Notes under the pieces: generated by a model
What the model saw: the letters and a program-made list of their open reading frames with translations, nothing else
What the model was told of the DNA's origin: nothing
Database searches by the model: none
In this document: positions 3,714-38,254 of the stretch, in pieces
Position numbering within the stretch: position 1 is the stretch's first letter
How the letters are laid out: each line of letters opens with the position of its first letter
Source: Halorhabdus rudnickae
Lineage (GTDB): Archaea; Halobacteriota; Halobacteria; Halobacteriales; Haloarculaceae
Direction: 5' to 3'
NCBI RefSeq assembly: GCF_900880625.1
Contig: NZ_CAAHFB010000004.1
Coordinates: 1-64,000, forward strand
Length of the DNA: 64,000 nt
Program-made: the position numbers and the translations under genes

Positions 3714-4696
3714 CCGGGCCACTCGGGGGCGAGCGATCGCTCCCGTCGGATCGTCGTGGCCAGTTGTTGCTCATTGGGGCGCTGGTCATCGCGCTGGTCG
3801 TCGTCGTCCTTGCGATGGTCGTCAACACTGTGTTGTTCACGGAGAACGCCGGGACCGAACGCGTCTCGGCCGAGGTCAATGGTGTCGACGCGTTCTCTTT
3901 CGAGGCCGGCAAGGCCACCCGATCGGTACTGCTGCGTGTCAACCACGAGGCCCACGATCGGTCCGTCGACCAACTCAACGAGAACGTCACGGAATCGATC
4001 GCCGGATACAACGAGGTGCTGGGTCGTTCCCACGCTATGTCCGGGACTGCGTACGTGAACGTCTCCTACAACACGACGTTCCACAACGGGACGCGACTCG
4101 TCCAGCCGAGCGACGGGAACTTCACGTCCCCTCATACGGCCCCTGGTACCAATTGGCCCGTCATATCGCCCAGTAACGAGACCGACGTTGGCTGGTTCCT
4201 CCTGAACGTCAATCTTCGGAACACGACTGCCGACCACGCGTGGATCAACACGTCCGGTAGTAGTGAGGGCCTCAACTTCCGGATGAATCGATCGGACGGC
4301 GGCGACGGGAACAACCTCTCGCTTGCCGTCTACAATTCGTCGACGAACCTAGACTCGGTAAACTGTACGTCGACCGGCGGTCGTATCCTTCTGGACCTCT
4401 ATGAGGGTACAGGATCGAGCGAGAATTGTTCGTTCACCGGGATCGGGGAGTATCTCGATCCGAAGTACGACATATCCCTCGAGGGTGGTGACAACGTCGC
4501 CGGGAAGTACTCGATTGTCACAGACAGCACGTGGAACGCGAGTTTCACCTCTTTCGACCGCTGTCGAGCAACCAGCACGGTCCCGCTATGTCGATCGCCG
4601 GTCGTCTGGAACGGCTCGGTCGATCTCACGTATCAGTCCGCTACAGCCCAATATGCCCAACAGCGGAACGTTACCGTCTACGGAGAGGAAACATGA
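3707..4696 (+). CDS. Pilin-like protein, sequon-rich (DUF7261-like)
   Basis: A 329-residue protein starting at ATG 3707, which overlaps the upstream stop (ATGGTGA); a start further upstream would add residues unlike the family. SDRRG precedes the hydrophobic stretch QLLLIGALVIALVVVVLAMV, again a PibD-type signal. The exported part has an unusual density of N-x-S/T sequons (NVT, NTT, NGT, NET, NTS, NCS), implying heavy N-glycosylation, and several cysteines that could form disulfides. Translationally coupled to its neighbours on both sides. Confidence 0.75.
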   Translation: MVTGPLGGERSLPSDRRGQLLLIGALVIALVVVVLAMVVNTVLFTENAGTERVSAEVNGVDAFSFEAGKATRSVLLRVNHEAHDRSVDQLNENVTESIAGYNEVLGRSHAMSGTAYVNVSYNTTFHNGTRLVQPSDGNFTSPHTAPGTNWPVISPSNETDVGWFLLNVNLRNTTADHAWINTSGSSEGLNFRMNRSDGGDGNNLSLAVYNSSTNLDSVNCTSTGGRILLDLYEGTGSSENCSFTGIGEYLDPKYDISLEGGDNVAGKYSIVTDSTWNASFTSFDRCRATSTVPLCRSPVVWNGSVDLTYQSATAQYAQQRNVTVYGEET

Positions 4697-6000
4697 CATC
4701 GAAACGTCGACAACGAACATCGTCCGCTACGGCGCCTGTACCGATGCATGCCACCAGATTATCTGACGATGATCGGGGAATATCCACGCCGGTCACTCAC
4801 TCGCTGTCGATCGCGATTACGACGGTCCTGATCTTCGGGCTCATCTTCGCCGCGAACGCGTACCTCGAAGACAAGCGCGATGTCGGCGCCCGCCAGCAGG
4901 TCGAGTCCATCGGGGCCGAACTGGCGAGTCAACTGGAGGAGGCCGCACAGCTCGGTACCGACAGCCAGCAGGCGACGCTCCGCGTCAACCAACCGGCACA
5001 GGTGCTGTCGAATTCCTACGGCGTCTCTCTTGAGGACGCAAGCGCGTGTCGCGTAGCCGCCAGCGCCTGCCTGGTTGTTAAGGTCTCCCGTCCCGGTGGG
5101 AACCTCGTCCGTGAGTTCCCCGTCCAGAACGGTTCGAACGTACACGTCTCGATTGAGCGATTGGACTCGACGACGTTCACTCTGCGGGCCGTCCGGGTGG
5201 GCGGTGCTGCGACGCGATCGGACGTGGTTCCGATCGATCATACGCTACAGATGGGGGTCGGATCCAACGTCGCTCAGTCGGGGAGGGCGGCCATTAACCC
5301 ACTCAATCGGCTGCCGATTGCCGAGTTCACGTTCGACCCAACATTCCCTGACAGCAGTGACAGTATCGAGTTCGATGCCTCGCCGAGTCGCGATCCGGAC
5401 GGATCGATCACTGACTATTACTGGTACGTCGACGGGGCGAACGCTTCGTCCGGTCAGATCTACAATCGCACGAGCGGGCTGTCGCCCGGTACCCATCAGA
5501 TCAAGCTCAGAACCGTCGACGACGAGGGTGGCGTCGGGAACAAGACCCGCACGATCTCCGTGTCCGGGCTGGTGTACAACGATGACATGGCGGAAGACAA
5601 ATCTGGCTCGTGTCCGGATACCGGTCAGTGTCTTAGCTTTACCGTGACGAATGATTGGTCCTCGGAGGACGTTACCCTTTCGCACATCAGCATTGACCCT
5701 GAGCATGTTGACTCGATGGAAGCGAAAGACTCGCCTCCTTTCGGATTTCCTATCGATCGTCCTGAACTTAAGATTGATACAGGAAGCTTGCACGGGCAAG
5801 ATGCAGAAATTGATTTCTCCAACAAGGAAGACGGTGTTATAATCCCTCTCGAAACTCCTATCACGATAAATTCCGGTGATACGGCTACCATCCGTATTCA
5901 GGGCCTGGAGGACGGAGAGGATCTATACCCGATAACGGTCGGTCTCCGGTACTGGAGCGACGATACGTCTTACCGGACGTTGATCACGGAGGGCCCCTGA
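4693..6000 (+). CDS. Pilin-like protein with PKD-type domain (DUF7266-like N-terminus)
   Basis: 435 residues from ATG 4693, in an ATGA overlap with the gene before. The N-terminus carries DDRG then ISTPVTHSLSIAITTVLIFG, a class III-type signal. Residues about 208-293 (PIAEFTFDP, then DASPSRDPDGSI and HQIKLRTVDDEGG) form a PKD-like beta-sandwich, common in surface adhesion proteins. Residues about 294-435 are a further beta-rich region. As I recall, relatives are much shorter, so the PKD and C-terminal parts look added. Codon use at 5640-5900 is visibly more AT-rich than the neighbours, which suggests acquisition. Confidence 0.7.
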   Translation: MTSKRRQRTSSATAPVPMHATRLSDDDRGISTPVTHSLSIAITTVLIFGLIFAANAYLEDKRDVGARQQVESIGAELASQLEEAAQLGTDSQQATLRVNQPAQVLSNSYGVSLEDASACRVAASACLVVKVSRPGGNLVREFPVQNGSNVHVSIERLDSTTFTLRAVRVGGAATRSDVVPIDHTLQMGVGSNVAQSGRAAINPLNRLPIAEFTFDPTFPDSSDSIEFDASPSRDPDGSITDYYWYVDGANASSGQIYNRTSGLSPGTHQIKLRTVDDEGGVGNKTRTISVSGLVYNDDMAEDKSGSCPDTGQCLSFTVTNDWSSEDVTLSHISIDPEHVDSMEAKDSPPFGFPIDRPELKIDTGSLHGQDAEIDFSNKEDGVIIPLETPITINSGDTATIRIQGLEDGEDLYPITVGLRYWSDDTSYRTLITEGP

Positions 6001-6001
6001 G

Positions 6002-6811
6002 ATGTCCGGGATATCGTCGTGGCCGGCTGACCGGGACAGTATGGCGGATCGACAGTGGCTCGGCCAAGACACTCGTGCCGTCTCGGAACTCGTCGGCTTC
6101 TCGCTGACGTTCGGGATCGTGCTCGTGTCGGTCACGCTCATCGCGACGCTCGGGTTCGGGCAACTCACTGACTTCCGGGACGCCCAGCAACTCGACAACG
6201 CGGAACAGGCGATGGAGATTGTCGGGGGGTCACTTGAGAGCATCGAGGAGGGTGACGCGGTGACTCGATCCGAAGCGATGGACCTCTCGGGCGGATCTAT
6301 CGAAGTCGAGAAAGGATCGGTAGCGAACGTGACCGTCTTCAATTCGAGTGGTGGGCGACTCCATAGTGAGTTGCTCGATCTCAACGCACTCGTCTACTCA
6401 CAGGGATCGACACGCATCTCCTACGAGAACGGGGCGACGTATCGCCAGGAGTCACAGGGTGGCGTCATGACCACCGAACCCAAGTTCGTTTGCAGTGACG
6501 ATGTCGCTGTGCTGTCGTTCGTCACTCTCGAAGAACGGACCCAGGCCGGCAAGATCAGCGGAGGGGAGGTGTCGATCACCGCCAGCCATTCCGATACTCG
6601 ACTCGTCTATCCGGTGAATCGGACGGGTGATAACGCCACTAACGCCGCGAACGTGACCGTAGAGATGACCTCGCCGCGCGAAGGACCGTGGACGGACCAC
6701 TTCGACAACGCCGAGAACTGGAACGCTTCGGGGACGACGATCCAGTGTGGTGGGAGTCTCGAACGCGTCTACGTCCGACAGACGAACATCTCGGTCAGCC
6801 TGTCGAACTGA
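6002..6811 (+). CDS. Pilin-like protein (DUF7289-like)
   Basis: 269 residues. DTRA precedes VSELVGFSLTFGIVLVSVTL, close to the archaeal pilin motif (A/G, then VSELVG). The exported domain contains YRQESQGGVM and a late NVTVEMTSPREGPWTDHF, which recur in related form in the convergent von Willebrand protein at 6853-9081; the two share one N-terminal architecture. Begins one base after the upstream stop. Last gene of the rightward pilus operon. Confidence 0.75.
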   Translation: MSGISSWPADRDSMADRQWLGQDTRAVSELVGFSLTFGIVLVSVTLIATLGFGQLTDFRDAQQLDNAEQAMEIVGGSLESIEEGDAVTRSEAMDLSGGSIEVEKGSVANVTVFNSSGGRLHSELLDLNALVYSQGSTRISYENGATYRQESQGGVMTTEPKFVCSDDVAVLSFVTLEERTQAGKISGGEVSITASHSDTRLVYPVNRTGDNATNAANVTVEMTSPREGPWTDHFDNAENWNASGTTIQCGGSLERVYVRQTNISVSLSN

Positions 6812-6852
6812 TCGCGAACAAACGTTCGGGCCAACGGTGGTTGGCCCCGTCG

Positions 6853-9081
6853 CTACTCCTGCTCTAGTTCGATATTACTGATGGAGATGTCGACGACGTT
6901 GGCTGGTCGCATCTCATCGCTCTCCCCGATCGTATAGAGAACCAACATTTTATTGTCGCTGTTTTTCCCGTCGGGGAAATCATAGAGCACCAGCGCCTGG
7001 TTGCTGTCGAGGCTGAGTTGATCCGTCGTCGCGTTATAGAGCGACCGGTTGACGACGAGGTCGGTCAGATTCGCTTGCCAGTCGGCCGTCCTCGTGTTGC
7101 CGAGCATGGTGGTGAACGCCGTCGAGTTGGCGTTCGTGTAGACAGTGACATCGCTTCCCGAGACGGTCGTGTTCTTCGAGGGGTTCATCGTCTTACAGCG
7201 TGTCACCGGGTAGTTACTGCCGTTGGTAGTCTGTTTCTGTCCCGTCGTGACCCACTGGTCACAGCCGTACACCGTCGCGCTGAAGTTCACGTTTCCTCCG
7301 TCCGAGATAGAGAACGCGTGACTGAACGTTGAGGGCGCGGTTGGGTCGTTGACGTTCAGGAACGTCTTGTTCATCTTCGTCACGTTGGCGATGTTGGAGA
7401 CGTTCCCGGTAATCTGGGGCGTCTGTATCGACCCGTTCGCTGAGATATTTGTCGAGAACGGCGTTCGTCCGATCTGCTGGGTACTGGAGACGCGCTTAGC
7501 GATCCGTTCGAACGCCTTTTCGAGCTCACTCGCGTTTTTGGCGTAGTAGTATTTCCCCCCGCCGTTTGTTGCTGTCTGGTTGAGGAATGCCTCGTTCAGA
7601 TCACCGGCGTTGTCCGCGAATCCGATCGTATGTACCGTCGTCCTAGATCTGTTAGCCAGCGTGGCGATCCGTTCAGTTGCCGGGTCCGGGTCAGTGTATC
7701 TGGTATCTCCGACGTAGATCTCTTGAGTGCCTGTGTTCTTTCCGTCAGACAGCATAATGATGTACTTGTCCCGGGTTTCGTTCGACTCTAGGCTCAAAAT
7801 TGAGTGCGCCCGTTTCATGCCGATCGCGGTGAACGTCCCTCCAGAATGTTTGGTTTTGTTTACTGTCGAATTGAATTTCGTCAGATTACCGCTCAATCTA
7901 TAGTCATTCGTCCGATAGACGTTTGCAACAAACCTATTAGTCCATCCAGACGATATCTTTTTAAAGCCGACCAGACCGGCTCGGTCGTAGGCCGGAGTCA
8001 AATACGTCGTGAAGTTCTGCATCGCGCCCCGTGCGACTTGGTACTTGTCCTTGCTTGAGCCTGCCGCTGGATTTCCCATCGACCCTGACTCGTCGACCAC
8101 AAACATCACGTCCACCGGATCGCGGGTCACGTTGCCAGATGCAGAGATGTTTCGCACCGTCCCGATATTGATATCGTCGGCCACCGGCTCGACGTAGACC
8201 GTGTAGTTGTTGCTGGCGTTTTTGCTGACGGCAATCCCGCTCTGGGAGACCGTCACGTTGCTCATGTAGCTCGCGTTCGTCAGGTTGACGACGTTGTTCA
8301 CCGCGTCGTTGGTTTCGGGCGGCAGCGCACTTTGGGCGAGGAAGGCCGTCGTCGTCTCGTTATTTTCGTCGACAGTCAGAGAGGTATATCCGCCCGTGTC
8401 CTCTAGGTGTTCGGCCCAGCCCTCGTAGAGATTGCTCTTTATTTCGACCGTGACGTTGTCCGGGCGCTTGCAGTTCCCCTGGTACAGCGTTTGGATCGCG
8501 TTCCGGGTGTCCTGGTTCGATGTCGTCGCGTTCAATAGCGCTTCAGTACTCCCACCCGAGACACTGCCGGTCAGGTTCGTCAGAGAGAGATCGACGTGAC
8601 CATTCTGGATGCTGAGCGTCGGCGGGGTGACCGCGACCACGCCCCCCTCACTCGACTGTCGCCAGACACCACCGGCCTCGTAGACCAGGGTATCGTCCGT
8701 CTCTGTCTCGATACGGATCGAATCCAGAGACGTGTTCACCGAACAGGTACTATTCTTGTTGATAGTGACGTTTATATGGCCTTTGTTTGCCACTAGTTCC
8801 GGCTCGTTGTGAGTCTGCTGTTCGTTCTCGAGGAGTCGAAACTCGGTCGCGGCCGATCCGCCGGAGGCCGCGAGTGATGTAAGGCGCGCATCGACTTCTT
8901 CCATGGCGAATTCCGACGTTTCGTCCACCTGTTGATCCTGACTGTCGTTCATCAACGGTGTTGCGAATACCATGATCGCCAGTGCCCCGGCGATAACGAT
9001 TCCAACTAACAACACGTACCCTACCAACTCCGAGACGCCCCTGTCGGTGCCGGCAACCGCAGTCAATCCCCTGGATCTCAT
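6853..9081 (-). CDS. Pilin-type surface protein with von Willebrand factor A domain
   Basis: 742 residues. N-terminus: TDRG, then VSELVGYVLLVGIVIAGALA, a class III prepilin signal. Next comes a region resembling the 6002-6811 protein (WRQSSEGGVV; VTVEIKSNLYEGWAEHL), then a vWA domain with a full metal-ion-dependent adhesion site: DESGSMG, a conserved T in SGGTFTAIG, and D in LSDGKNTG. The tail contains many N-x-S/T sequons. vWA domains bind protein partners through a divalent ion, so this is probably a tip or minor pilin adhesin. It converges on the pilus operon and has its own TATA box about 30 bp upstream. Confidence 0.85.
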   Translation of the reverse strand: MRSRGLTAVAGTDRGVSELVGYVLLVGIVIAGALAIMVFATPLMNDSQDQQVDETSEFAMEEVDARLTSLAASGGSAATEFRLLENEQQTHNEPELVANKGHINVTINKNSTCSVNTSLDSIRIETETDDTLVYEAGGVWRQSSEGGVVAVTPPTLSIQNGHVDLSLTNLTGSVSGGSTEALLNATTSNQDTRNAIQTLYQGNCKRPDNVTVEIKSNLYEGWAEHLEDTGGYTSLTVDENNETTTAFLAQSALPPETNDAVNNVVNLTNASYMSNVTVSQSGIAVSKNASNNYTVYVEPVADDINIGTVRNISASGNVTRDPVDVMFVVDESGSMGNPAAGSSKDKYQVARGAMQNFTTYLTPAYDRAGLVGFKKISSGWTNRFVANVYRTNDYRLSGNLTKFNSTVNKTKHSGGTFTAIGMKRAHSILSLESNETRDKYIIMLSDGKNTGTQEIYVGDTRYTDPDPATERIATLANRSRTTVHTIGFADNAGDLNEAFLNQTATNGGGKYYYAKNASELEKAFERIAKRVSSTQQIGRTPFSTNISANGSIQTPQITGNVSNIANVTKMNKTFLNVNDPTAPSTFSHAFSISDGGNVNFSATVYGCDQWVTTGQKQTTNGSNYPVTRCKTMNPSKNTTVSGSDVTVYTNANSTAFTTMLGNTRTADWQANLTDLVVNRSLYNATTDQLSLDSNQALVLYDFPDGKNSDNKMLVLYTIGESDEMRPANVVDISISNIELEQE

Positions 9082-9111
9082 CGTTACTAGTCCTATCTTT
9101 TCCGTGATACG

Positions 9112-9119
9112 GTATAAAT
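9112..9119 (-). promoter_or_regulatory. TATA box of the vWA pilin gene
   Basis: On the minus strand an A/T box reading TTTATAC lies about 30 bp before the ATG at 9081. This spacing puts the transcript start at or near the start codon, as in leaderless haloarchaeal genes. Confidence 0.5.
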
Positions 9120-9446
9120 GTATTCCGGAGGGTGTGTTTCATCTGGCGTTCGGCTGTCTCCTCCTCGGTAACGCTATTTTCATGTACTGGTCTGAAACGG
9201 CTCCTGGTGAAAGATAAGCACGGGTACTGACCAAGAGATTCACGCCCTTCGGTCGTGAAACCAACCGGCTTGTGAACGGTTCTATGACACCCTAGTATTC
9301 CGACTATTTCTCCGCCGAAACGATGTCTTGACGGTCGCGAACGTCGGACGGCAATATCGCTGCTGGCAGTGTTCTTCTTTGTGCTGGCATGATCGAGGCG
9401 GACGCAATCGGGTGTGTTGATCGAATATGTCCTTCGGTGATCGAAC
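9120..9446. other. Gene-free spacer between vWA pilin and DUF5781-type gene
   Basis: The minus-strand vWA gene promoter occupies the left end. The rest has only short, non-conserved frames and no clear hairpin or RNA gene. I see nothing else that can be supported. Confidence 0.5.
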
Positions 9447-10196
9447 TCAGTCTGCGAGCTGGGACGTCCGAGTCGCATACGTTCGTGTGAGGTCGACTAG
9501 AGCCCCGCGAAACTCGCTTTCGGACGGGTCACGGTCGAGTGACCGAAATCGGCGACGAAACTCGTCAACTCCGAGATGGGGCGCGTCGGTGGCGGCGGCG
9601 TGGGCAAGATCGTACAGCCGGTGGCCGGTCTCGACGAGGTCGTGTCGCTCGACCAGTGCCAGCGCGAACGCGGCATTGACCGCCGTAATATCCGGGTCGG
9701 CCCCACCCGTGATGCGGTCCCAGCCTATCGGGTCGTCGGGACGATCTGCCACCGCAGCGGCGAGACTGGCCTCCAGGAAGTCCACCAGCTTGGCGGCGGG
9801 CGCAAGGTCCATCCAGACGTCGTCCGCGTAGACGTCGCGGGCGTGATTAGCGATCTGGTAACACTGTGCGACCGTCCGGCGCTCGACGCTCCGTCCGGAG
9901 AGTGCCAGAAAAATCGCCTCTTCTGTTGGGAGTGTATGTGAGGGATGGCCTTCTTCAGTGTGATGCATATGCGCGAACTCGTGGAGTGCAAACTCCCGTG
10001 CCATCGCGCTGGTGGCCACCCGCCGGGAGACGACCAGCGTGTGGCGGTCGTCGTCGTGACTGACACGGGTTCGCTCGTCCGGATCGCGCCGGATCTCGAC
10101 AGTTACCGGACGATCGAGGTCGTATTCGGTCTCGAAGAGGTCTCGCGCCCCGAGAAACGGTGCGGCCGGGCCGGAACCGCCGACCTGCAACTCCAT
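9447..10196 (-). CDS. Putative metalloprotease-like protein (DUF5781-like) with HEFAH motif
   Basis: 249 residues, acidic and without signal peptide. LHEFAHMHH near residue 92 carries the HExxH zinc-protease signature with extra histidines, and E114/E115 of PTEEAIFLAL could supply a third ligand. The domain fits a conserved haloarchaeal protein I know as DUF5781; activity has not been shown to my knowledge. Upstream of its start lies the region shared with the EF-2 gene, so the two are divergently transcribed. Confidence 0.7.
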   Translation of the reverse strand: MELQVGGSGPAAPFLGARDLFETEYDLDRPVTVEIRRDPDERTRVSHDDDRHTLVVSRRVATSAMAREFALHEFAHMHHTEEGHPSHTLPTEEAIFLALSGRSVERRTVAQCYQIANHARDVYADDVWMDLAPAAKLVDFLEASLAAAVADRPDDPIGWDRITGGADPDITAVNAAFALALVERHDLVETGHRLYDLAHAAATDAPHLGVDEFRRRFRSLDRDPSESEFRGALVDLTRTYATRTSQLAD

Positions 10197-27213: not shown

Positions 27214-27594
27214 TCAGAGCTTCGCTATCTCGCGAGCGGCTTCGGCTTGCTCGCGGACAGAATCGACCGTGGCCTTCGGACTGGTCGCAGCGACAGCGGC
27301 GTTGACTGCCCCTTCCAGTACCGGCGCATCCGCGATCACTGCATCGACATCACTGGTTTCGACAGCGACTTCGGCGTTCATCACTGCACTCCCGAGGTCA
27401 ACCAGGACGACGACCCCATCCCCACTGTCGGCTGCTTCTAACGCGGCTTCGATGTCGTCGGCGACAGTACCAAACCCACCATGACCGTCGCCGCCGACCG
27501 GTTCGATGTGGGTGTCACCACCCATTTCGCTCGCAACCTCGGCAATTCCCTCGGCGGCGCGCTGGCTGTGTGAGACGACGACGAGTCCAACCAT
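27214..27594 (-). CDS. dhaM: Dihydroxyacetone kinase phosphotransfer subunit DhaM (EIIA domain)
   Basis: 126 residues, the mannose-type EIIA domain only. H9 in LVVVSHSQRAAEG is the phosphorylated histidine; the partner region GTVADDIEAALEAADSGDG and VVLVDLGSAVMNAE fits. It passes phosphate to DhaL-bound ADP. The phosphate must come from PTS proteins EI and HPr encoded elsewhere. The start overlaps the dhaL stop by one base (27594). Confidence 0.92.
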   Translation of the reverse strand: MVGLVVVSHSQRAAEGIAEVASEMGGDTHIEPVGGDGHGGFGTVADDIEAALEAADSGDGVVVLVDLGSAVMNAEVAVETSDVDAVIADAPVLEGAVNAAVAATSPKATVDSVREQAEAAREIAKL

Positions 27595-28295
27595 TATTCT
27601 TCCGCTGGTTCTGCATCCGGGATTGTCGGTGACGTGGCGTCCACGTCAGGAATCTCGGCGTCCATCTTGTCGGCGGCCGTTTCCAGGAGTGTCTCTAAGA
27701 TGAACAGCGTACTCGTCGCCCCCGGATCTTGGTGGCCGACTGACCGCCAGCCGAGATACGATGCCCGTCCCTTGTTCGCGCGGATGGCCACGGTGAAGTC
27801 AACGCCTCGTTCGGCCGCATCGACGGCTTTGGCGAGCGCCTCGAGTATCGGCAGGTCGTCGGTTTCGACGGATTTTTTGAACGTGTGGACCGCCGGCGTC
27901 AGTGCGTCGACCATCGTCTGGTCGCCCACGTTTGCGTCACCGCGGTCTTTGAGCTTTTCGAGGTACGTCTCGGCGAACGCGACGACACTCTCCTCGGTGA
28001 GTCCATCTTCGAGTTCTGGACTGGCGAACACGAGGGACCCACCGTACAGTGGGCCCGCCGCGCCGCCGACTTCTCCCAGGACGGTTTTCCCGGCCGTCTT
28101 GACGACCTCCTCTGGGGTGGGATCTTCGAGATCCCTGACTGTATTGGCAGCCTCGGCCCAGCCTCTGGCCATGTTACCACCGTGGTCTGCGTCGCCGATG
28201 GCGGAGTCGAGTTCGGTTAGGTAGTCGCGTTCCTCTTCGAGGCGCTCGGCGATATTCTCGATGACGGCGACGACCGCTTGCCCATTCGCGCTCAT
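27594..28295 (-). CDS. dhaL: Dihydroxyacetone kinase subunit DhaL
   Basis: 233 residues from ATG 28295, overlapping dhaK by ATGA. It binds ADP with two Mg ions through LDSAIGDADHGGNMARG, and has VGGAAGPLYGGSLVFASPEL and NKGRASYLGWRSVGHQDPGA, both standard DhaL signatures. A tail of about 20 acidic residues is extra. Part of dhaKLM, which phosphorylates dihydroxyacetone to DHAP. Confidence 0.95.
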   Translation of the reverse strand: MSANGQAVVAVIENIAERLEEERDYLTELDSAIGDADHGGNMARGWAEAANTVRDLEDPTPEEVVKTAGKTVLGEVGGAAGPLYGGSLVFASPELEDGLTEESVVAFAETYLEKLKDRGDANVGDQTMVDALTPAVHTFKKSVETDDLPILEALAKAVDAAERGVDFTVAIRANKGRASYLGWRSVGHQDPGATSTLFILETLLETAADKMDAEIPDVDATSPTIPDAEPAEE

Positions 28296-29290
28296 TGGAC
28301 TGTCAGTGCCGGTGTATCGGCAGGCGCCGAGAGCAACGCTTTCAGTTCGTCGTCGACGGCGGCCACCGTAATCGAAACTCCTTCCATGTCCAGGGAGGTC
28401 ATGTAATCGCCGACCCACGCGTCCCACATTTCGAGGCCCTCGTCCTCGAGCAGTTCCTGCAGCCGATTGTTGACCACGAACAGTTCCATCAACGGCGTGC
28501 CGCCCATGCCGTTGACGATGGTGATGACCTCCTGGCCGGCATCGAGGTCGAGATCATCGAGAACCGTCTCGGTCAGTTCCTCGGTGATTGGGTCGGCTTC
28601 CATGACATCGGTCCGCTCCGTTCCCGGTTCGCCGTGGATACCGATGCCGAGTTCGATTTCGTCGTCACCGAGATCGAACGTCGGTTCGCCTTTCTCCGGC
28701 GTGATACACGAGGTGAGAGCCATACCCATCGTCCCGACGTTGTCGATGACTTTCTGGGCGACTCGCTGGACTTCCTCCAGATCGGCACCCTCGGCGGCTT
28801 TCGCGCCCGCTGCCTTGTGGACGAGGATGGTCCCACAGACACCCCGGCGCCCGGAAGTGTACAGTGAGTCATCGACGGCGACGTCGTCGTTGACGACGAC
28901 CGTCTCGACTTCGACCCCTTCCATCTCGACCATCTCGATAGCCGTTTCGAAGTTCATTACGTCGCCCTCGTAGTTTTTGACAACTGCGAGGACCCCTTCG
29001 CCACTGTCAGTGGTGGTGATCAATTTTTCAAACTCGTCGGCGGTCGGCGAGGAGAACACGTCACCTGCAGCCGCGCCATCGAGCATACCGTCACCAATGT
29101 ATCCACCGTGAGTCGGTTCGTGTCCGCTGCCGCCACCACTGACGACGCCGACTTTGTCTTCTACGGGTGCGTCATCTCGGACTAAAACTTGTGTATCCGA
29201 CAGTCGTCGTAGTTCTTCGGGGTAGGCACGTACCATCCCATCGAGCATTTCGTCGACGACGTCATCGGGATCGTTGATTAGTTTCTTCAT
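28292..29290 (-). CDS. dhaK: Dihydroxyacetone kinase subunit DhaK
   Basis: 332 residues from ATG 29290 (MKKLINDPDDVVDEML), which has a good ribosome site (GGGAG) just upstream; an in-frame ATG at 29305 is less likely. It binds dihydroxyacetone covalently through the histidine in LGIGIHGEPG; GGGSGHEPTHGGYIGDGMLD is the substrate loop. First gene of dhaKLM. In haloarchaea this system uses DHA or overflow from algal glycerol. Confidence 0.96.
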   Translation of the reverse strand: MKKLINDPDDVVDEMLDGMVRAYPEELRRLSDTQVLVRDDAPVEDKVGVVSGGGSGHEPTHGGYIGDGMLDGAAAGDVFSSPTADEFEKLITTTDSGEGVLAVVKNYEGDVMNFETAIEMVEMEGVEVETVVVNDDVAVDDSLYTSGRRGVCGTILVHKAAGAKAAEGADLEEVQRVAQKVIDNVGTMGMALTSCITPEKGEPTFDLGDDEIELGIGIHGEPGTERTDVMEADPITEELTETVLDDLDLDAGQEVITIVNGMGGTPLMELFVVNNRLQELLEDEGLEMWDAWVGDYMTSLDMEGVSITVAAVDDELKALLSAPADTPALTVQ

Positions 29291-29292
29291 AC

Positions 29293-29340
29293 TCCCTTCG
29301 AACAATGGATACTACACGACAAAAAATTATTTATATAAAT
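29293..29340 (-). promoter_or_regulatory. TATA box and ribosome site of dhaKLM
   Basis: On the minus strand ATTTATATAA (29331-29340) is a strong TATA box in an AT-rich tract, and GAAGGGAG (29293-29300) sits directly before the start. This predicts a short leader of about 20 bases carrying a real Shine-Dalgarno site, unlike the leaderless genes around it. Confidence 0.6.
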
Positions 29341-30498: not shown

Positions 30499-31800
30499 AT
30501 GGGTTTACGAGCCTTTCTGCAGGCAGAAGACCAGACGACGCTCACCGAACCGGTCGACCCCCGATTCGAACTTCCGGCACTGGCCGTTCAAGCGGAGCGC
30601 CAGCCGACCGTCTTCGAGTCCGTCGACGGGTATCCGGACGTCCGTGCGGTCGCCAATACGCTCGGCTCTCGCGAGATGATCGGTCGGGCGCTGGATGTTG
30701 CGGCCTCCGATATCGTCGACGCGATGGGATCGGCGATGGACGACCCGCTGGCCGTCGAGGAGACGGCCGAGGCGTCCTTCGAGCACGTTGGGAGCGACCC
30801 GGCCATCGACGAGCACGTGCCGATCCCGGTATTCTACGACGAGCACGAACGCCAGTACTTCGCCTCGTCGGTCGTGATCGCTGAAGACCCCGAGACTGGC
30901 GTGACCAACTGTTCGTTCCATCGGATGATGTTCGACGAGGGTAACCGACTCGTCATGCGATTGGTCGAGCGCCATCTCCACGATATGTATTCGCGTACGG
31001 AGGAAGGTCTCGACGTTGCGATCGTGATGGGCGTCCATCCCGCGGTCGAACTCGCTGCTGCGACCTCCTTTGCGCCCGAGAAGAGCGAACTCGCGCTGGC
31101 AAATCGCCTGCTCGACGGCGATCTGACGACCGCCGACGCCGATGGCATCGACGTACCGGCCGACGCCGAGATCGTCATGCGGGCGACGATCACTGACGAA
31201 CGAGCCGAGGAAGGGCCGTTCGTCGATCTCTCGCGGACCTGGGATCGGACTCGACAGCAGCCCGTCGTGACGGTCGACGATCTCTACATGCGGCCCGATC
31301 CCTACGCCCGGATCATCGTCCCCGGGCGGACCGAACACGCCCACCTGATGGGGATCCCACAGGAACCCCGGATCTACCGGATCGTCGAGAACACCGTCCC
31401 GACGGTCGAGAACGTCGTGCTGACGCCGGGCGGGTGCTCGTGGCTGCACGGCGTCGTCCAGATCGAAAAGCGCAGCGAGGGCGATCCCAAGAACGCCGGA
31501 ATGGCCGCGCTCGCGGGTCATCCCTCGATGAAGAAAGTCACCGTCGTCGACAGCGACATCGACGCCGCCGATCCGGCGGCCGTCGAGTGGGCGACGGCGA
31601 CACGCATGCAACCCGACGAGGACATTACGGTCATCGAGAACGCCAAGGGGTCCTCACTCGACCCCTCACAGGACTACGACCGCGGGACACTCGCGAAGTG
31701 GATCGTCGACGCGACTGTGCCCGGCGACCGGGACCGCGCGGACTTCGCCGAGGTGACCGTACCCGGTGCCGAGGAGATCGACCTCGCGGACTACCAGTAA
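30499..31800 (+). CDS. UbiD-family decarboxylase, probably anhydromevalonate phosphate decarboxylase
   Basis: 433 residues. UbiD enzymes use prenylated FMN. Family signatures: GVTNCSFHRMM, the catalytic-site stretch RIIVPGRTEHAHLMGIPQEP and ENTVPTVENVVLTPGGCSWL. First of a four-gene run with aconitase X subunits and UbiX. In Aeropyrum that set makes isopentenyl phosphate: AcnX dehydrates phosphomevalonate to trans-anhydromevalonate phosphate and the UbiD protein decarboxylates it. The assignment rests on this context. A menaquinone-type decarboxylase is the alternative. Confidence 0.85.
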   Translation: MGLRAFLQAEDQTTLTEPVDPRFELPALAVQAERQPTVFESVDGYPDVRAVANTLGSREMIGRALDVAASDIVDAMGSAMDDPLAVEETAEASFEHVGSDPAIDEHVPIPVFYDEHERQYFASSVVIAEDPETGVTNCSFHRMMFDEGNRLVMRLVERHLHDMYSRTEEGLDVAIVMGVHPAVELAAATSFAPEKSELALANRLLDGDLTTADADGIDVPADAEIVMRATITDERAEEGPFVDLSRTWDRTRQQPVVTVDDLYMRPDPYARIIVPGRTEHAHLMGIPQEPRIYRIVENTVPTVENVVLTPGGCSWLHGVVQIEKRSEGDPKNAGMAALAGHPSMKKVTVVDSDIDAADPAAVEWATATRMQPDEDITVIENAKGSSLDPSQDYDRGTLAKWIVDATVPGDRDRADFAEVTVPGAEEIDLADYQ

Positions 31801-31807
31801 TACACCC

Positions 31808-32986
31808 ATGCACCTGACACAGGAAGAAGAGGATCTGCTCGAATCGGACAACGACGCCGTCCGCAAGGCGATGGAACTGCTCGTGAAACTGGGCGACATC
31901 TACGGGGCCGAGGAGATGATCGAGATCGAGTCCGCCCAGGCGTCGGGCATCTCCTATAAGTCGATCGGCGATCCCGGCGTCGAGTTCCTCGAAGGGTTCG
32001 CCGAGGAGGGAGCCGAGGCGTCGGTTCCCACGTTCGCCAACCCGGCAGGGATGGATCTCGAACGCTGGGAAGAGATGGGCGTAGACGAGGACTTTGCCGA
32101 CAAGCAGTTCCGAATCAGGGACGCACTTGAAGAGATGGGGATCGTTCTATCCTTTACCTGTACGCCGTATCTCGCGGGCAACCTCCCGCGGCGCGGCCAG
32201 CACGTCGCCTGGGCCGAATCCTCTGCGGTCTCCTTTGTTAACAGCGTGGTTGGGGCAAAGACCAACCGCGAGGGCGGTCCCTCCGCGCTCGCGGCGGCGA
32301 TCACCGGCCGGACGCCGAAGTACGGCCTCCATCTGGAAGAGAACCGCCAGCCGACCTACCGCATCGACGTCGAGGCAGACATCGAGAGTCAGGCCGACTT
32401 CGCGGCGCTTGGCTCCTGGACGGGACGACTCGTCGAGGATGGCAAGCCGTACTTCACTGGCATCGACGCCGGGGGAACGGACGAGTTGAAGGCCCTCGGG
32501 GCGGCGATGGCTGCGACTGGCGCGGTCGCGCTACACTTCGTCGAGGGTGTGACGACGGAGATGGACCCACCCGAGAACGTCGAGACGGTGACGTTCGGCG
32601 AGGGCGAACTCAAAGCGGAGTACGAGGAACTTACGACGGCCGACGATCCGGAACTCGTCGTCATCGGGTGTCCCCACTGCTCGCCCGAGGAGATTCAGGA
32701 CGTGGCGGCGACTGTTGAGGGCAAGGACCTCACCAGCGATCTGTGGGTCTGTACGAGTGCCTCGGTCAAGACCTGGGCCGACCGTAACGGGCTGACCGAG
32801 ACGATCGAGGCGGCGGGCGGACGCGTCCTCGCAGACACCTGCAATGTCGTCTCGCCGATCGAGGAACTGGGGTATGAATCCAGCGCGACCGATTCGGCGA
32901 AGGCTGCGACCTATCTCCCCGGCTTTTGCAACCAGGACGTGGCGTTCAACGACAAGGAGACGCTGCTGGCGGAGGTGACCGAGTGA
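31808..32986 (+). CDS. Aconitase X large subunit (probable phosphomevalonate dehydratase)
   Basis: 392 residues from ATG 31808. This DUF521 protein folds like aconitase. Cysteines able to hold a Fe-S cluster are in SFTCTPYLAG, VIGCPHCSPEE and VLADTCNVV. It also has FANPAGMDLERWEEMGVDE and REGGPSALAAAITGRTPKYG. It begins 7 bp after ubiD and ends on the start of the small subunit (TGATG). Other AcnX enzymes act on cis-3-hydroxyproline, but UbiD/UbiX partners favour phosphomevalonate. Confidence 0.85.
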   Translation: MHLTQEEEDLLESDNDAVRKAMELLVKLGDIYGAEEMIEIESAQASGISYKSIGDPGVEFLEGFAEEGAEASVPTFANPAGMDLERWEEMGVDEDFADKQFRIRDALEEMGIVLSFTCTPYLAGNLPRRGQHVAWAESSAVSFVNSVVGAKTNREGGPSALAAAITGRTPKYGLHLEENRQPTYRIDVEADIESQADFAALGSWTGRLVEDGKPYFTGIDAGGTDELKALGAAMAATGAVALHFVEGVTTEMDPPENVETVTFGEGELKAEYEELTTADDPELVVIGCPHCSPEEIQDVAATVEGKDLTSDLWVCTSASVKTWADRNGLTETIEAAGGRVLADTCNVVSPIEELGYESSATDSAKAATYLPGFCNQDVAFNDKETLLAEVTE

Positions 32987-33417
32987 TGGCGCCGGAATCG
33001 AGTGACTCGGCGGCTGTTGAGGAGACGATCGACGCCCAACCAATCACGGACGGCACAGGCCGGGGGGAAGTCATCCGGTCTCCCGTCCCGATCAGTTTCT
33101 ACGGCGCTGTCGAACCCGAGACCGGCGAGTTCATCGAGGACGGCCATCCGCTGGAAGGCGAGAACATCGCAGGGAAGGTGTTGGTCTTCCCGCGCGGGAA
33201 AGGATCGACGGTGGGGTCGTACGTCCTCTACGGACTGGCGAACAACGGGTGTGCGCCCGCCGCCATCGTCAACGAGGAGACCGAAACCATCGTCGCCACG
33301 GGGGCAATCCTCGGGGAAATCCCCTGCGTCGATTCACCGGACGCGCCACTGGAGACACTCGAAGACGGCGAGACCGTCGAAGTGGACGCTGAGACGGGCA
33401 CCATCAGGCGGGTGTAA
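32986..33417 (+). CDS. Aconitase X small (swivel) subunit
   Basis: 143 residues. DUF126 swivel domain that closes over the AcnX active site: GEVIRSPVPISFYGAVEPET, then VLVFPRGKGSTVGSYVLYGL with the conserved serine and glycine loop. It overlaps the large subunit by one base and is followed after 2 bp by ubiX. Both subunits are needed for the dehydratase in characterised archaea. Confidence 0.87.
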   Translation: MAPESSDSAAVEETIDAQPITDGTGRGEVIRSPVPISFYGAVEPETGEFIEDGHPLEGENIAGKVLVFPRGKGSTVGSYVLYGLANNGCAPAAIVNEETETIVATGAILGEIPCVDSPDAPLETLEDGETVEVDAETGTIRRV

Positions 33418-33419
33418 CC

Positions 33420-33986
33420 GTGGAGCGTGTCGTCGTCGGCGTCACGGGTGCCTCGGGCATCCCGATCGCCGTCCGGGCGGTCGAGGCGCTGGCCGAACAC
33501 GCTGCGGTCCACACAGTCGTCACCGACGCCGCCGAATCGGTGATGGCCCACGAGTCGGGGTCGCCCGAGGCGACGATAACTCGCCTGCGTGAGGCATCGA
33601 CCGAGCTGTACGGGGAAAGTGAAGTGGGCGCGCCGGTCGCCTCGGGATCGTTCGACACCGACGGCATGGTGATCGTCCCGGCCTCGATGAACACCGTCTC
33701 GGCGGTGGCGACCGGGCGGGCGGACTCGCTGGTGACTCGTGCCGCCGACGTCACGCTGAAGGAATGCCGTCGACTCGTCGTCGTTCCGCGGGAGACGCCG
33801 CTCAGCCAGATCCATCTGGAGAATCTGACGAAACTCGCCGAACTGGGCGTCGACGTGGTGCCGCCGATGCTCGGCTTTTACTTCGACCCCGAGGACCCGG
33901 CGGACTTCGTCGATCACGTCGTCGGGAAGATTCTCGAACGCTTCGACCTCGATCACGATTGCTACGACCGCTGGGACCCGTCGTGA
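33420..33986 (+). CDS. ubiX: Flavin prenyltransferase UbiX
   Basis: 188 residues with GTG start 33420. It makes prenylated FMN from FMN and dimethylallyl phosphate for the UbiD protein. Signatures: VGVTGASGIPIAVRAVE, MVIVPASMNTVSAVATG and RRLVVVPRETPLSQIHLENL. Its prenyl donor is a product of the pathway it serves, so the operon is self-consistent. Last gene of the four-gene run. Confidence 0.92.
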   Translation: MERVVVGVTGASGIPIAVRAVEALAEHAAVHTVVTDAAESVMAHESGSPEATITRLREASTELYGESEVGAPVASGSFDTDGMVIVPASMNTVSAVATGRADSLVTRAADVTLKECRRLVVVPRETPLSQIHLENLTKLAELGVDVVPPMLGFYFDPEDPADFVDHVVGKILERFDLDHDCYDRWDPS

Positions 33987-34091: not shown

Positions 34092-35000
34092 ATGGACGTA
34101 CTGACCCGGCTGGTGGTCATGATCGGACTGCTGGCGGTCGGCGTCGGCCTCCGGGAGGTCGACGTGCTCGATGCTACCCGGGTCGGTTGGCTCAACAGCG
34201 TCGCGTTCTACGTCGTCCTGCCGGCGTTGGTGTTCGACTCGACACATACCCAGCCGCTCGGAGAGATCGTTTCGCGGGAACTGTTGGTCGGCGTGGTTGG
34301 CGTGGTGATCGCGATGGCGGCGATCGCGGTCACGTTCCACCGGCGCATCGACGCCGACGGGCCGCGGGCTGCGGCCACCGTCCAGTCCTACCACACGAAC
34401 CTGGGATACATCGGCCTCCCGGTCGTGGCGAGTGCGCTCGGCGAGCGGGCGGCCGCGATCGGCAGCGTCGTCTTGGGGATCGGTGCGCTCGTCCAGATCC
34501 CGCTGACTGTGCTACTACTCGTCCGGATCACCGGCAGCGGGACGAACGTCCGCGAGGAGGCGAAACGACTGCTCACCAATCCCGTTTTGATCGCCCTTCT
34601 CATCGGGCTGGCGACCACCCAGCTCCCGTTCGCGGTCACGGGCGCGCCCGCCGACGGCGTCGCGTTGGTCGCCGAGGCGGCCCTACCCGTCGCGTTGCTC
34701 TGTGTCGGCGGGTCGATCGAACTCGAGTCGATCGACTTCGACCGGTCGATCGTCGGCAGCGTCCTGGCGCTGAAACTGCTGGTTATGCCGGCGGTTGCCT
34801 GGCTAGTCTTCGCCGGGCTCGGGGCCGATCCGTGGGCGCTCCGGACGGCTGTCGTCATGTTCGGAGCGCCAGCGGCCGTCTCGACGTTCGTCTACGTCAC
34901 CGAAATGGGCGGGGATCGACGACTGGCTTCGGTGAACGTCTTTCTCACGACGGTCGCCTCGGCGATCACCCTCTCTGCGTTGCTCGCTGTCGTGCCCTGA
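34092..35000 (+). CDS. AEC-family transporter
   Basis: 302 residues with about ten membrane helices in two halves. The half-repeat motif is visible in VAFYVVLPALVFDS and SYHTNLGYIGLPVVASALG (N and P at the helix break), then again in ALPVALLCVGGSIELE. The AEC family includes malate, auxin and other anion carriers. Substrate unknown. Monocistronic. Confidence 0.85.
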   Translation: MDVLTRLVVMIGLLAVGVGLREVDVLDATRVGWLNSVAFYVVLPALVFDSTHTQPLGEIVSRELLVGVVGVVIAMAAIAVTFHRRIDADGPRAAATVQSYHTNLGYIGLPVVASALGERAAAIGSVVLGIGALVQIPLTVLLLVRITGSGTNVREEAKRLLTNPVLIALLIGLATTQLPFAVTGAPADGVALVAEAALPVALLCVGGSIELESIDFDRSIVGSVLALKLLVMPAVAWLVFAGLGADPWALRTAVVMFGAPAAVSTFVYVTEMGGDRRLASVNVFLTTVASAITLSALLAVVP

Positions 35001-35082
35001 CGGACACTCCCATTCACGACACGAGTGACCGAACGTCTTCGTCTGCCTCTCGCACGTTCTCAGTCGGTGGGAGTGGACTGTG

Positions 35083-35091
35083 ACTCTTTAT
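35083..35091 (+). promoter_or_regulatory. TATA box of the ferritin-like gene
   Basis: TCTTTATGT about 30 bp before ATG 35118, fitting a leaderless transcript. Confidence 0.45.
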
Positions 35092-35117
35092 GTCCGCCGG
35101 GTGGAACAACGGAACGC

Positions 35118-35564
35118 ATGTCCCAAGACATCGTCGACCTGCTCGAGCAGGCGTATCTCGACGAAGTAGAGACCGCGATGAACTACCTCGCCAACGCGAT
35201 CTATTTAGAGACGGTGCTGGGAGAGACCGTCGCCGAATCGCTCAAGGAGGACGTCGAGGAGGAACTCCATCACGCCGAGGAACTGGGCTATCGGCTGCGG
35301 TTCTACGGCGAGGTTCCGCCGGCGTCGGCGGACCTCGAGGTCAACCAGGAGTCGCTCCAGCCGCCCGCCGAGGGCAGTGACGTGCTCGAAGTCGTCGAGG
35401 GCGTCATCGAAGCCGAAGAGGACGCCGTCGAGACCTACGAGGCCCTGATTGATGCGGCTGAGGAGGCCGACGATCCCGTCACCGAGGATCTGGCGACCGA
35501 ACTGCTGGCCGACGAGCAGGCCCACCTCGCGGAGTTCCTCAGCTACCGTAAAGAGTTCGCCTGA
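35118..35564 (+). CDS. Ferritin-like diiron four-helix protein
   Basis: 148 residues from ATG 35118. Helices carry the ferritin-like diiron ligands: E in YLDEVETAMNYLAN, ELHHAEELG (ExxH), E in EAEEDAVETYEAL, and DEQAHLAEF (ExxH). It is shorter than bacterioferritin and lacks its heme methionine context, so a simple iron-oxidising or oxygen-scavenging protein is likely. Acidic. Confidence 0.8.
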   Translation: MSQDIVDLLEQAYLDEVETAMNYLANAIYLETVLGETVAESLKEDVEEELHHAEELGYRLRFYGEVPPASADLEVNQESLQPPAEGSDVLEVVEGVIEAEEDAVETYEALIDAAEEADDPVTEDLATELLADEQAHLAEFLSYRKEFA

Positions 35565-35766: not shown

Positions 35767-36648
35767 GTGAAACACTTGCCTGGTAATCGAGCGCCAGACG
35801 GCGATCTGGACGCGCGAATCGAACAGTATCGCCAGACGGCAACGGAGGTCCGCAGGGACATCGTCGAGATGGTCTATGCGGCACAGTCGGGCCATCCGGG
35901 CGGCTCGCTGTCTGCCGTTGAGTTTCTGCTCTGGTTGTACAACGAGGAATTGAACGTCGATCCCGAGAACCCGACGGATCCGGACCGTGATCGACTCGTC
36001 TACAGCAAAGGGCACGCCTGTCCCGTGCTGTACGCACTGCTGGCTCGCTACGACTTCATCGACTGCGATCCAAACGAGGAGTTCCGCCGCCTGGGCGGGG
36101 AACTCCCGGGCCACTCCTCGCCGAAGGTCCCCGGCGTCGAGTTCCCGTCGGGATCGCTCGGTCAGGGACTGTCCTACGCCAACGGTCAGGCGATGGGTGC
36201 CGACTTCGACGACGCTGACTACGACGTCTACGCCATCCTGGGCGACGGCGAGACCCAGGAAGGCAACATCTGGGAGGCCGCGATGTCGGCCGGCGAGAAG
36301 GAACTCGATGTCGTCGCGATCGTCGATCGCAACAGGAAACAGAACGATCTCCCCGTCGCCGAGACGATGGAGATCGATCCGCTGGCCGAGAAGTTCGAGG
36401 CTTTCCGGTGGGATACCTGGGAGGTCGACGGTCACGACTTCGAGGAGATCGCCGAGGCCTTCGAAGAGATCAACGAGACCGACGGTCCGCGACTGCTGAT
36501 CGCCAACACCGTCAAGGGCAACCCAATCGACTTCATGGAGGCCCAGCCCAACGGCTATCACGCTGGCGCGTTGACCGACGACGAATTCGACGAGGCCCTT
36601 GAGGAACTCGGCTTCGACCCCGCGACCGTGGAGGTGAGCACCAAATGA
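35767..36648 (+). CDS. tktN: Transketolase, N-terminal subunit
   Basis: 293 residues with GTG start 35767; AGGGGT lies just upstream. It is the thiamine diphosphate-binding half: SGHPGGSLSAVEFLLWLY, SKGHACPVLYALL, SGSLGQGLSYANGQAMGA and the ThDP motif GDGETQEGNIWEAA followed by N in DRNRKQND. Archaeal and some bacterial transketolases are split in this way. It overlaps the C-terminal gene by four bases (ATGA). Confidence 0.95.
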   Translation: MKHLPGNRAPDGDLDARIEQYRQTATEVRRDIVEMVYAAQSGHPGGSLSAVEFLLWLYNEELNVDPENPTDPDRDRLVYSKGHACPVLYALLARYDFIDCDPNEEFRRLGGELPGHSSPKVPGVEFPSGSLGQGLSYANGQAMGADFDDADYDVYAILGDGETQEGNIWEAAMSAGEKELDVVAIVDRNRKQNDLPVAETMEIDPLAEKFEAFRWDTWEVDGHDFEEIAEAFEEINETDGPRLLIANTVKGNPIDFMEAQPNGYHAGALTDDEFDEALEELGFDPATVEVSTK

Positions 36649-37577
36649 GCGAGAAGATTTCGACCCGGAACGGCTTCGGGAACGGACTGTTGCGCGAGGC
36701 TGAGGAGCGCGAGGATTTCATCGTCATGGACGCCGACCTGGCCAAATCAACCCGGGGTGGCTGGTTCCGCGACGAGTACCCCGAACGCTGGATCAACGTC
36801 GGCATCTCCGAGCAGGACCTCTTTGCGACCGCGGCCGGCATCGCCGAGACCGGCCGGCCGGTCTTTGCCAATACCTTCGCCATCTTCTCCGAGCGTGGCT
36901 TCGAGCAGGTGCGCCAGCAGATCGCCCGCCCGAAGCGCAACGTGACCGTCGTCGGCAGCCATGCCGGCGTCATCACGGGCGAGGACGGCCCGAGTGCCCA
37001 GACGGTCGAGGACATCTCGGCCTACCGTGGCCTGCCGAACCTGCGCGTCATCTCGCCCGCGGACGCTGTCGAAGCGAACGCGCTCGTGACCGCGCTGGCG
37101 GACGACGACGACCCCGCTTACCTGCGGTTGGTTCGTGAGTCCGTCCCCGTCATCCACGACGCCGAGGACTACGAACCGACGATCGGTGAGGGAGAGATCC
37201 TCAGCGAGGGCGAGGACGTGACGCTGATGGCCCACGGTGCGATGGTCCACGTCGTCCAGGAAGCCGCCGAAGTCCTCGCCGAGGACGGCATCGACGCCCG
37301 CGTCGTCAATATGTCGACGATCAAGCCCCTCGACGAGGAACTCGTCGTCGAGTCCGCCGAGCAGACCGGCGCGATCCTCACCGCCGAGGACCACAACATC
37401 TACGGCGGACTGGGCAGCGCCGTCGCCGAAGTGCTCGCCGAGCAGCGCCCGACGCCGATGAAGCGCGTCGGTATCGAAGACGAGTTTGGCACCTCCGGCA
37501 ACGGGCTGGATCTCTACGACTACTACGGCTTCACTGGCGAGGACATCGCCGAGACGGCGAAAGGGCTATTGGAGTAA
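36645..37577 (+). CDS. tktC: Transketolase, C-terminal subunit
   Basis: 310 residues. Pyrimidine-binding half, with the catalytic glutamate in WINVGISEQDLFATAAGIAE, then FANTFAIFSERGFEQVRQQ and VVGSHAGVITGEDGPSAQT. Together with TktN it moves two-carbon units between sugar phosphates. Followed by transaldolase 20 bp downstream, so one operon handles the sugar-shuffling steps. Confidence 0.95.
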   Translation: MSEKISTRNGFGNGLLREAEEREDFIVMDADLAKSTRGGWFRDEYPERWINVGISEQDLFATAAGIAETGRPVFANTFAIFSERGFEQVRQQIARPKRNVTVVGSHAGVITGEDGPSAQTVEDISAYRGLPNLRVISPADAVEANALVTALADDDDPAYLRLVRESVPVIHDAEDYEPTIGEGEILSEGEDVTLMAHGAMVHVVQEAAEVLAEDGIDARVVNMSTIKPLDEELVVESAEQTGAILTAEDHNIYGGLGSAVAEVLAEQRPTPMKRVGIEDEFGTSGNGLDLYDYYGFTGEDIAETAKGLLE

Positions 37578-37597
37578 GTCCACTAACACAACCGATC

Positions 37598-38254
37598 ATG
37601 CGCACATACATTGACTCTGCGTTCGTCGACGAGGTACGAGAAGCCGACGAACTGGGCCTAGTCGACGGGGTCACTACGAACCCGTCGTTGGTCTCCTCGA
37701 CCGATCGGGAGTACCGGGACATCATCGACGAACTCGACGAGTTCGTCGAGGGACCGATCAGCGTCGAGGTCATCGCCACCGACTACGAGGGGATGCTCGA
37801 GGAAGCCCGCGAGTACGACACCTGGGGTGACAACATCGCCGTCAAGCTGCCGATGACGCGCGACGGCATGAAGGCCCTCCAGACCCTTTCGGATGAGGGC
37901 GTTCAGACTAACATCACGCTGATATTCTCGGTCAACCAGGCGCTGATCGCCGCCAAGAACGGCGCGACGATGGTTTCGCCGTTCATCGGGCGACTCGACG
38001 ACAACGGTCACGACGGCGTTGGTCTCATCGAGGACATCCGCGAAGTCTACGACAACTACGACTTCGAGACGGACATCCTCGCGGCGTCGATCCGCAACCC
38101 CTACCACGTCCAGGAGGTCGCGAAGGCTGGCGCGGACATCGCGACGCTGCCGCCGGACGTGGCCGACTCGATGTTCGACCACCCGCGCACTGATAGTGGG
38201 CTTGAGGCCTTCCTCGACGACTGGGGCGACCGCGAGAGCCCCGCGCTGAAGTAA
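37598..38254 (+). CDS. tal: Transaldolase (short MipB/TalC type)
   Basis: 218 residues. Schiff-base lysine K83 in NIAVKLPMT; first strand MRTYIDSAFVDEV with the catalytic D, GVTTNPSLVSS, and TNITLIFSVNQALIAAKNGA plus VSPFIGRLDDNG. The short family covers transaldolases and fructose-6-phosphate aldolases. Its position after transketolase favours transaldolase. Completes the carbon shuffle of the non-oxidative pentose phosphate path. Confidence 0.92.
   Translation: MRTYIDSAFVDEVREADELGLVDGVTTNPSLVSSTDREYRDIIDELDEFVEGPISVEVIATDYEGMLEEAREYDTWGDNIAVKLPMTRDGMKALQTLSDEGVQTNITLIFSVNQALIAAKNGATMVSPFIGRLDDNGHDGVGLIEDIREVYDNYDFETDILAASIRNPYHVQEVAKAGADIATLPPDVADSMFDHPRTDSGLEAFLDDWGDRESPALK

Follow-up and report, generated by a model that had tools for sequence, protein, structure and literature searches.

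Four-gene cassette in the Halorhabdus genome

We analyzed a stretch of 64,000 nucleotides (here referred to as the window) from the haloarchaeon Halorhabdus rudnickae (contig NZ_CAAHFB010000004.1, positions 1 to 64,000), which contains a cassette of four genes encoding a UbiD-family enzyme, the large and small subunits of an aconitase X protein (AcnX-L and AcnX-S), and UbiX (Table 1). The original prediction, made from the letters of the window, had described these genes as a tight operon of the anhydromevalonate-phosphate pathway. The gene coordinates, the intergenic distances of 7, -1, and 2 bp (window positions 30499-33986), and the domain scans all agree with such an operon, in which the start of AcnX-S overlaps the stop of AcnX-L by 1 bp. 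Since the Halorhabdus genome (G000; 3.36 Mb, 6 contigs) contains a single UbiD copy, UbiX is predicted to serve the UbiD enzyme of the cassette; AcnX is likewise present in a single copy. In addition, the order UbiD, AcnX-L, AcnX-S, UbiX is kept in all 15 haloarchaeal genomes that have an AcnX of the phosphomevalonate dehydratase (PMDh) type, and therefore the arrangement is not due to chance.

TABLE 1 Genes of the cassette and their coordinates in the window
Product	Position	Strand	Length and domain matches
UbiD-family enzyme, predicted trans-anhydromevalonate phosphate decarboxylase (AMPD)	30499..31800	+	433 aa; Pfam UbiD N, middle, and C domains
AcnX large subunit, predicted PMDh catalytic subunit	31808..32986	+	392 aa; PF04412, 496 bits (cutoff, 31.5)
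AcnX small (swivel) subunit of predicted PMDh	32986..33417	+	143 aa; PF01989, 117.6 bits
UbiX flavin prenyltransferase, predicted prenyl-FMN supplier for the UbiD enzyme	33420..33986	+	188 aa; Pfam Flavoprotein/UbiX, 134.9 bits; PRK06029 (NCBIfam), 205.2 bits (cutoff, 188)

Identity of AcnX and UbiD

AcnX-L aligned over its full length with the PMDh of T. kodakarensis (PDB 7CNR; E = 1.3e-102, 48% identity), and it scored 347 bits against this protein versus 200 bits against bacterial cis-3-hydroxyproline dehydratases. As in type IIb AcnX, the large and small subunits are encoded by separate tandem genes (PF04412 and PF01989), and three cysteines match the 4Fe-4S ligands of ApPMDh. These residues (Cys118, Cys288, and Cys345) are invariant in an alignment of the 15 haloarchaeal rows with 7CNR, and by motif and position we take them as the equivalents of Cys122, Cys297, and Cys356 of ApPMDh, whose alanine mutants retain <4% activity (PMC10040528). 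The cysteine positions are shared with T. kodakarensis PMDh (PDB 7CNR/7CNS), whereas the haloarchaeal AcnX-L has a short insertion at approximately residues 83 to 91 and a slightly longer C-terminus. Judged by these features, AcnX is of the phosphomevalonate dehydratase type, and it is predicted to dehydrate mevalonate 5-phosphate. An assignment to the cis-3-hydroxyproline dehydratases (type I AcnX) was rejected, with 249.9 bits against an equivalog cutoff of 700 and with the fused bacterial form less close than 7CNR.

Other AcnX matches were set aside. In 25 other haloarchaeal genomes, we found weak matches of 18 to 28 bits (cutoff, 31.5) that cover part of the profile; these are likely other aconitase-family proteins and were not counted. 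A different AcnX pair was found in a haloarchaeon of another family (G272; L069, 8247-9494, minus strand), where it scored 210 bits against the cis-3-hydroxyproline dehydratase model (cutoff, 700). With 31% identity to the window AcnX and no UbiD nearby, it was excluded as a cassette-type AcnX.

The UbiD-family enzyme scored 302.8 bits against TIGR00148 (cutoff, 244.9). The models for menaquinone- and ubiquinone-type UbiD were far from reaching their equivalog cutoffs (TIGR03701, 97.9 versus 495.9 bits; PRK10922, 88.2 versus 788 bits), and this identity was rejected. In a maximum-likelihood tree, the enzyme falls inside the archaeal AMPD clade (support, 100/97), with HmfF, AnInD, AroY, and the second UbiD type of methanogens outside it. 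By AMPD clade we mean the UbiDs from archaea with the anhydromevalonate route; no experimentally characterized AMPD can be named among the tree rows. The enzyme also carries EGPFVD and GGCxWLH, which fit the clade motifs EGPF[VL]D and GGCxxxxH. The closest solved UbiD-family structure, matched over its full length, is PDB 6H6X, which we take to be the decarboxylase HmfF; it differs in lying outside the AMPD clade and in having EGPFGE instead of EGPFVD. The assignment to the AMPD type, with predicted prenyl-FMN-dependent decarboxylation of trans-anhydromevalonate 5-phosphate (tAHMP), is well supported. Both misassignments against which the pathway had to be guarded, namely, a cis-3-hydroxyproline-type AcnX and a menaquinone-type UbiD, thus failed to materialize.

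Coexistence with phosphomevalonate decarboxylase

The same genome encodes a canonical phosphomevalonate decarboxylase (PMD; G000:C1:1389936-1390904), which scored 592 bits against NF040704 (cutoff, 475). The Pfam model MDD_C alone gave 22.8 bits, just below its cutoff of 23.2, and the fuller analysis identified the protein as canonical PMD. Mevalonate kinase (269.9 bits; cutoff, 163) and isopentenyl phosphate kinase (IPK; 178.5 bits; cutoff, 120) are encoded by mutually adjacent genes. The PMD and IPK that define the haloarchaea-type mevalonate pathway are therefore both present, and each of the 292 haloarchaeal genomes sampled contains PMD. Because PMD is intact here and present in all of those genomes, the cassette is a second, parallel branch and not a replacement, and the archaeal mevalonate pathway as the sole route in Halorhabdus was ruled out. 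The original prediction had made the pathway assignment and had left it open whether PMD was lacking. The assignment is well supported by the cysteines, by the AMPD clade and its motifs, and by the PMD neighborhood in other haloarchaea and the kinase context in DPANN archaea described below; PMD is not lacking.

Compared with the haloarchaea-type pathway of Haloferax volcanii (PMD, IPK), Halorhabdus has the same PMD, mevalonate kinase, and IPK, and it adds another way of turning mevalonate 5-phosphate into isopentenyl phosphate, one that the papers we found report as missing from Halobacteria. With the archaeal modified mevalonate pathway of Aeropyrum pernix and Methanosarcina mazei, it shares the enzyme families, the two-subunit AcnX, the 4Fe-4S cysteines, the AMPD-clade UbiD, and IPK, whereas it differs in also having PMD, in carrying UbiX within the operon, and in having sequences nearest to those of hypersaline DPANN archaea. 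In the scheme that we propose, AcnX (large and small subunits with a 4Fe-4S cluster) would dehydrate mevalonate 5-phosphate to tAHMP, UbiX would supply prenyl-FMN, and UbiD would use this cofactor to decarboxylate tAHMP to isopentenyl phosphate, which the IPK of the genome would convert to isopentenyl diphosphate (IPP). PMD acts on the same substrate, yielding isopentenyl phosphate in one ATP-consuming step.

Distribution and genomic position in haloarchaea

Among the 292 genomes scored for presence or absence, 15 contain the cassette: all 7 Halorhabdus genomes, 4 of the 5 genomes in the genus of Halapricum hydrolyticum, one more genus belonging to the same family, and 3 Halobacteriaceae genomes (two genera). 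Genome G093 is presumably a Halanaeroarchaeum. Halodesulfurarchaeum formicicum HSR6 (G007), a cassette holder, is an anaerobic sulfur respirer (PMC5437934).

The three Halobacteriaceae holders have the cassette between the endonuclease III gene (nth) and the PMD gene, upstream of the latter and on the same strand, with 66 or 74 bp from UbiX to PMD. In four cassette-free Halobacteriaceae, nth and PMD are separated by a gap of ~190 to 235 bp with nothing else between them, and therefore the cassette was either inserted at the PMD locus or cleanly lost from it. The cassette is near an aldolase-family gene in the Halapricum group, and it is flanked by alaX on one side and an AEC-family (auxin efflux carrier) transporter gene on the other in Halorhabdus. 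Since these contexts and that of the Halobacteriaceae differ, the cassette occupies several places.

Regarding the surroundings in the window, the transporter gene and a ferritin-like gene follow the cassette (34092-35564); both are also found at this place in H. salina and H. amylolytica, and so is the transporter gene in G050. Separate genes for the N and C halves of transketolase, with a transaldolase-family gene after them (35767-38254), make up a pentose-phosphate-like set, and the dihydroxyacetone kinase genes DhaK and DhaL lie side by side at 27594-29305 (minus strand).

Relationship to DPANN archaea

The nearest nonhaloarchaeal AcnX sequences come from five metagenome-assembled genomes (MAGs) labeled Aenigmatarchaeota, Diapherotrites, or DPANN. 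Their identity to the haloarchaeal AcnX is 65 to 68%, versus 41 to 54% for relatives in the haloarchaeal phylum, most of whose other members carry AcnX. Four of the five MAGs bear the sample name T1Sed10, which we associate with hypersaline soda-lake sediment. The GC content of the DPANN contigs (38 to 48%, versus 66% in haloarchaea) argues against haloarchaeal contamination. PMD was looked for in these five MAGs (genomes of 0.5 to 0.7 Mb) and was not found. In one of them (L075), the gene order is mevalonate kinase, deoxyhypusine-synthase-like, NUDIX, UbiD, HD-domain-like, AcnX-L, AcnX-S, UbiX, and IPK, the deoxyhypusine-synthase and HD labels having been assigned by eye. Separately, in the MAG of archaeon RBG_16_50_20 (L129), a PMD/DMD-like gene (4688-5629) is located beside UbiD-AcnX genes (6712-9566), so that both branches occur side by side; this decarboxylase scored 277.7 bits against a PMD cutoff of 475 and 179.5 bits against a DMD cutoff of 171.

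Trees with other archaeal enzymes, a check proposed at the outset, placed the haloarchaeal copies beside those of hypersaline DPANN. In the AcnX tree, the haloarchaeal rows form one clade (100/100) that is sister to the saline DPANN (100/100) and separate from almost all of the remaining phylum members. In the UbiD tree, the haloarchaeal and saline DPANN rows are nested, within the AMPD clade, with further Aenigmatarchaeota (100/100). The approximately unbiased (AU) test rejected trees in which haloarchaea were forced together with the other phylum members (AcnX, p = 9e-5; UbiD, p = 1.9e-6) and, for UbiD, a single DPANN clade excluding haloarchaea (p = 0.0019). The UbiD nesting and the rejection of the DPANN-only clade favor a transfer from DPANN to haloarchaea, and Aenigmatarchaeota-like DPANN archaea of hypersaline sediments would be the most likely donors. 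The AcnX and UbiD trees disagree on the placement of Halodesulfurarchaeum within haloarchaea, and so an exchange between two haloarchaeal families is possible.

Possible link to anaerobic life

The 4Fe-4S cluster of PMDh is sensitive to oxygen, and the archaeal route is cheaper in ATP (PMC10040528). Heme-copper oxidase is missing in only 4 of the 292 haloarchaea, and 3 of these 4, all Halobacteriaceae, have the cassette. Anaerobic ribonucleotide reductase (NrdD) was found in six genomes (G050, G079, G089, G140, G145, and G269), each of which has the cassette. These are six of the seven Halorhabdus genomes; as NrdD is restricted to this genus, it is of limited use as a general anaerobe marker. 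Fisher's test gave p values of 4e-4 for oxidase absence and 6e-9 for NrdD, both uncorrected for phylogeny. Overall, the cassette is kept in few lineages, including strict and facultative anaerobes, and PMD and the cassette may divide their labor between aerobic and anaerobic conditions.

Function and origin of the cassette

Taken together, we consider it quite probable that the cassette is a horizontally acquired, ATP-sparing, oxygen-sensitive bypass of PMD that is useful in anaerobic life; the enzymatic activities, flux, anaerobic use, and donor direction in this reading are those that we infer. PMD would be the oxygen-tolerant branch and the cassette the ATP-sparing, oxygen-sensitive branch for anaerobic, energy-limited growth, with the two being interchangeable. 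More tentatively, and with somewhat less than even confidence, we suggest that anaerobic haloarchaea have an oxygen-switched mevalonate pathway, in which a DPANN-derived, ATP-free branch stands beside PMD, is possibly coregulated with it, and is chosen according to oxygen and energy state.

Several observations weigh against this picture. The effective sample for the anaerobe link is small because only two families are involved, and most cassette holders keep heme-copper oxidases. The NrdD family search gave no match in the genome of the window itself, and one genome (G129, family f10) has neither a heme-copper oxidase match nor the cassette, making it a possible counterexample. With PMD retained everywhere, the cassette may not be needed. 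As to the origin, the DPANN rows are MAG contigs with submitter-given names, and nesting by itself leaves some doubt about the donor direction.

The cassette might instead be a catabolic or side-pathway system that acts on another hydroxy acid (e.g., hydroxyproline-like or aromatic) and is unrelated to isoprenoids. Such enzymes do exist in the AcnX and UbiD superfamilies, and PMD already provides isopentenyl phosphate; we nevertheless regard this as very improbable in view of the low score against cis-3-hydroxyproline dehydratase (249.9 versus 700 bits), the PMDh cysteine set, the AMPD-clade UbiD, and the genomic setting, with PMD as the neighbor in three genomes and with mevalonate kinase and IPK on either side in a DPANN MAG. 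Harder to dismiss, though still rather unlikely, is that the PMDh and AMPD chemistry is real and the acquired module is redundant, being retained neutrally or by drift without a condition-specific role. The universal and intact PMD would fit this view, as would the several genomic locations of the cassette and its presence in only 15 of 292 genomes. Against it stand the intact four-gene set in two families, in every Halorhabdus genome, and in all three oxidase-less Halobacteriaceae with the cassette, as well as the intact catalytic residues.

For the origin, vertical inheritance of an ancestral archaeal pathway from a methanogen-like ancestor of haloarchaea would agree with the AcnX of most other phylum members and with the view that PMD replaced the archaeal route (PMC9254496). 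Both AU rejections and the higher AcnX identity to saline DPANN than to phylum relatives speak against it, making it the least probable of the alternatives. A transfer from haloarchaea to DPANN symbionts deserves more weight, and we give it a minor but appreciable chance: the AcnX tree shows the haloarchaeal copies as sister to those of saline DPANN, and DPANN commonly take up host genes. It is opposed by the nesting of UbiD inside further Aenigmatarchaeota, by the rejected DPANN clade without haloarchaea, and by the DPANN MAG with its lower-pathway cluster, no PMD found, and a GC content well below the haloarchaeal one. A chain of transfers passing through haloarchaea and back to saline DPANN is possible. 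Acquisition from DPANN archaea is the reading that we prefer.

Significance

The oxygen-sensitive route is the one found in most other archaea. The class Halobacteria has been described as departing from it, using PMD as its replacement (PMC10040528, PMC9254496). Our literature search, with thin coverage of subscription journals, found no report of both routes in haloarchaea. Coexistence has a precedent outside this group, since Asgard genomes have been reported with archaea-type and eukaryote-type mevalonate genes on one contig (PMC11052028). Thus, the chemistry itself is known, and what appears to be new is the joint presence of cassette and PMD in a few haloarchaea, the insertion at the PMD locus in what seem to be strict anaerobes, and the apparent DPANN origin. 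The horizontal origin, the restricted distribution, and the insertion beside PMD go beyond the original prediction.

Both routes coexist, and in three genomes they do so in a single gene cluster. Since a single host would allow the deletion of either branch under both oxic and anoxic conditions, the balance between ATP cost and oxygen tolerance, a long-discussed reason for alternative mevalonate pathways, becomes directly testable. Our data also suggest that central lipid metabolism may receive genes from DPANN archaea and, if this is true, would represent a case in which genes of small DPANN archaea reached a haloarchaeal lineage and altered its core lipid metabolism.

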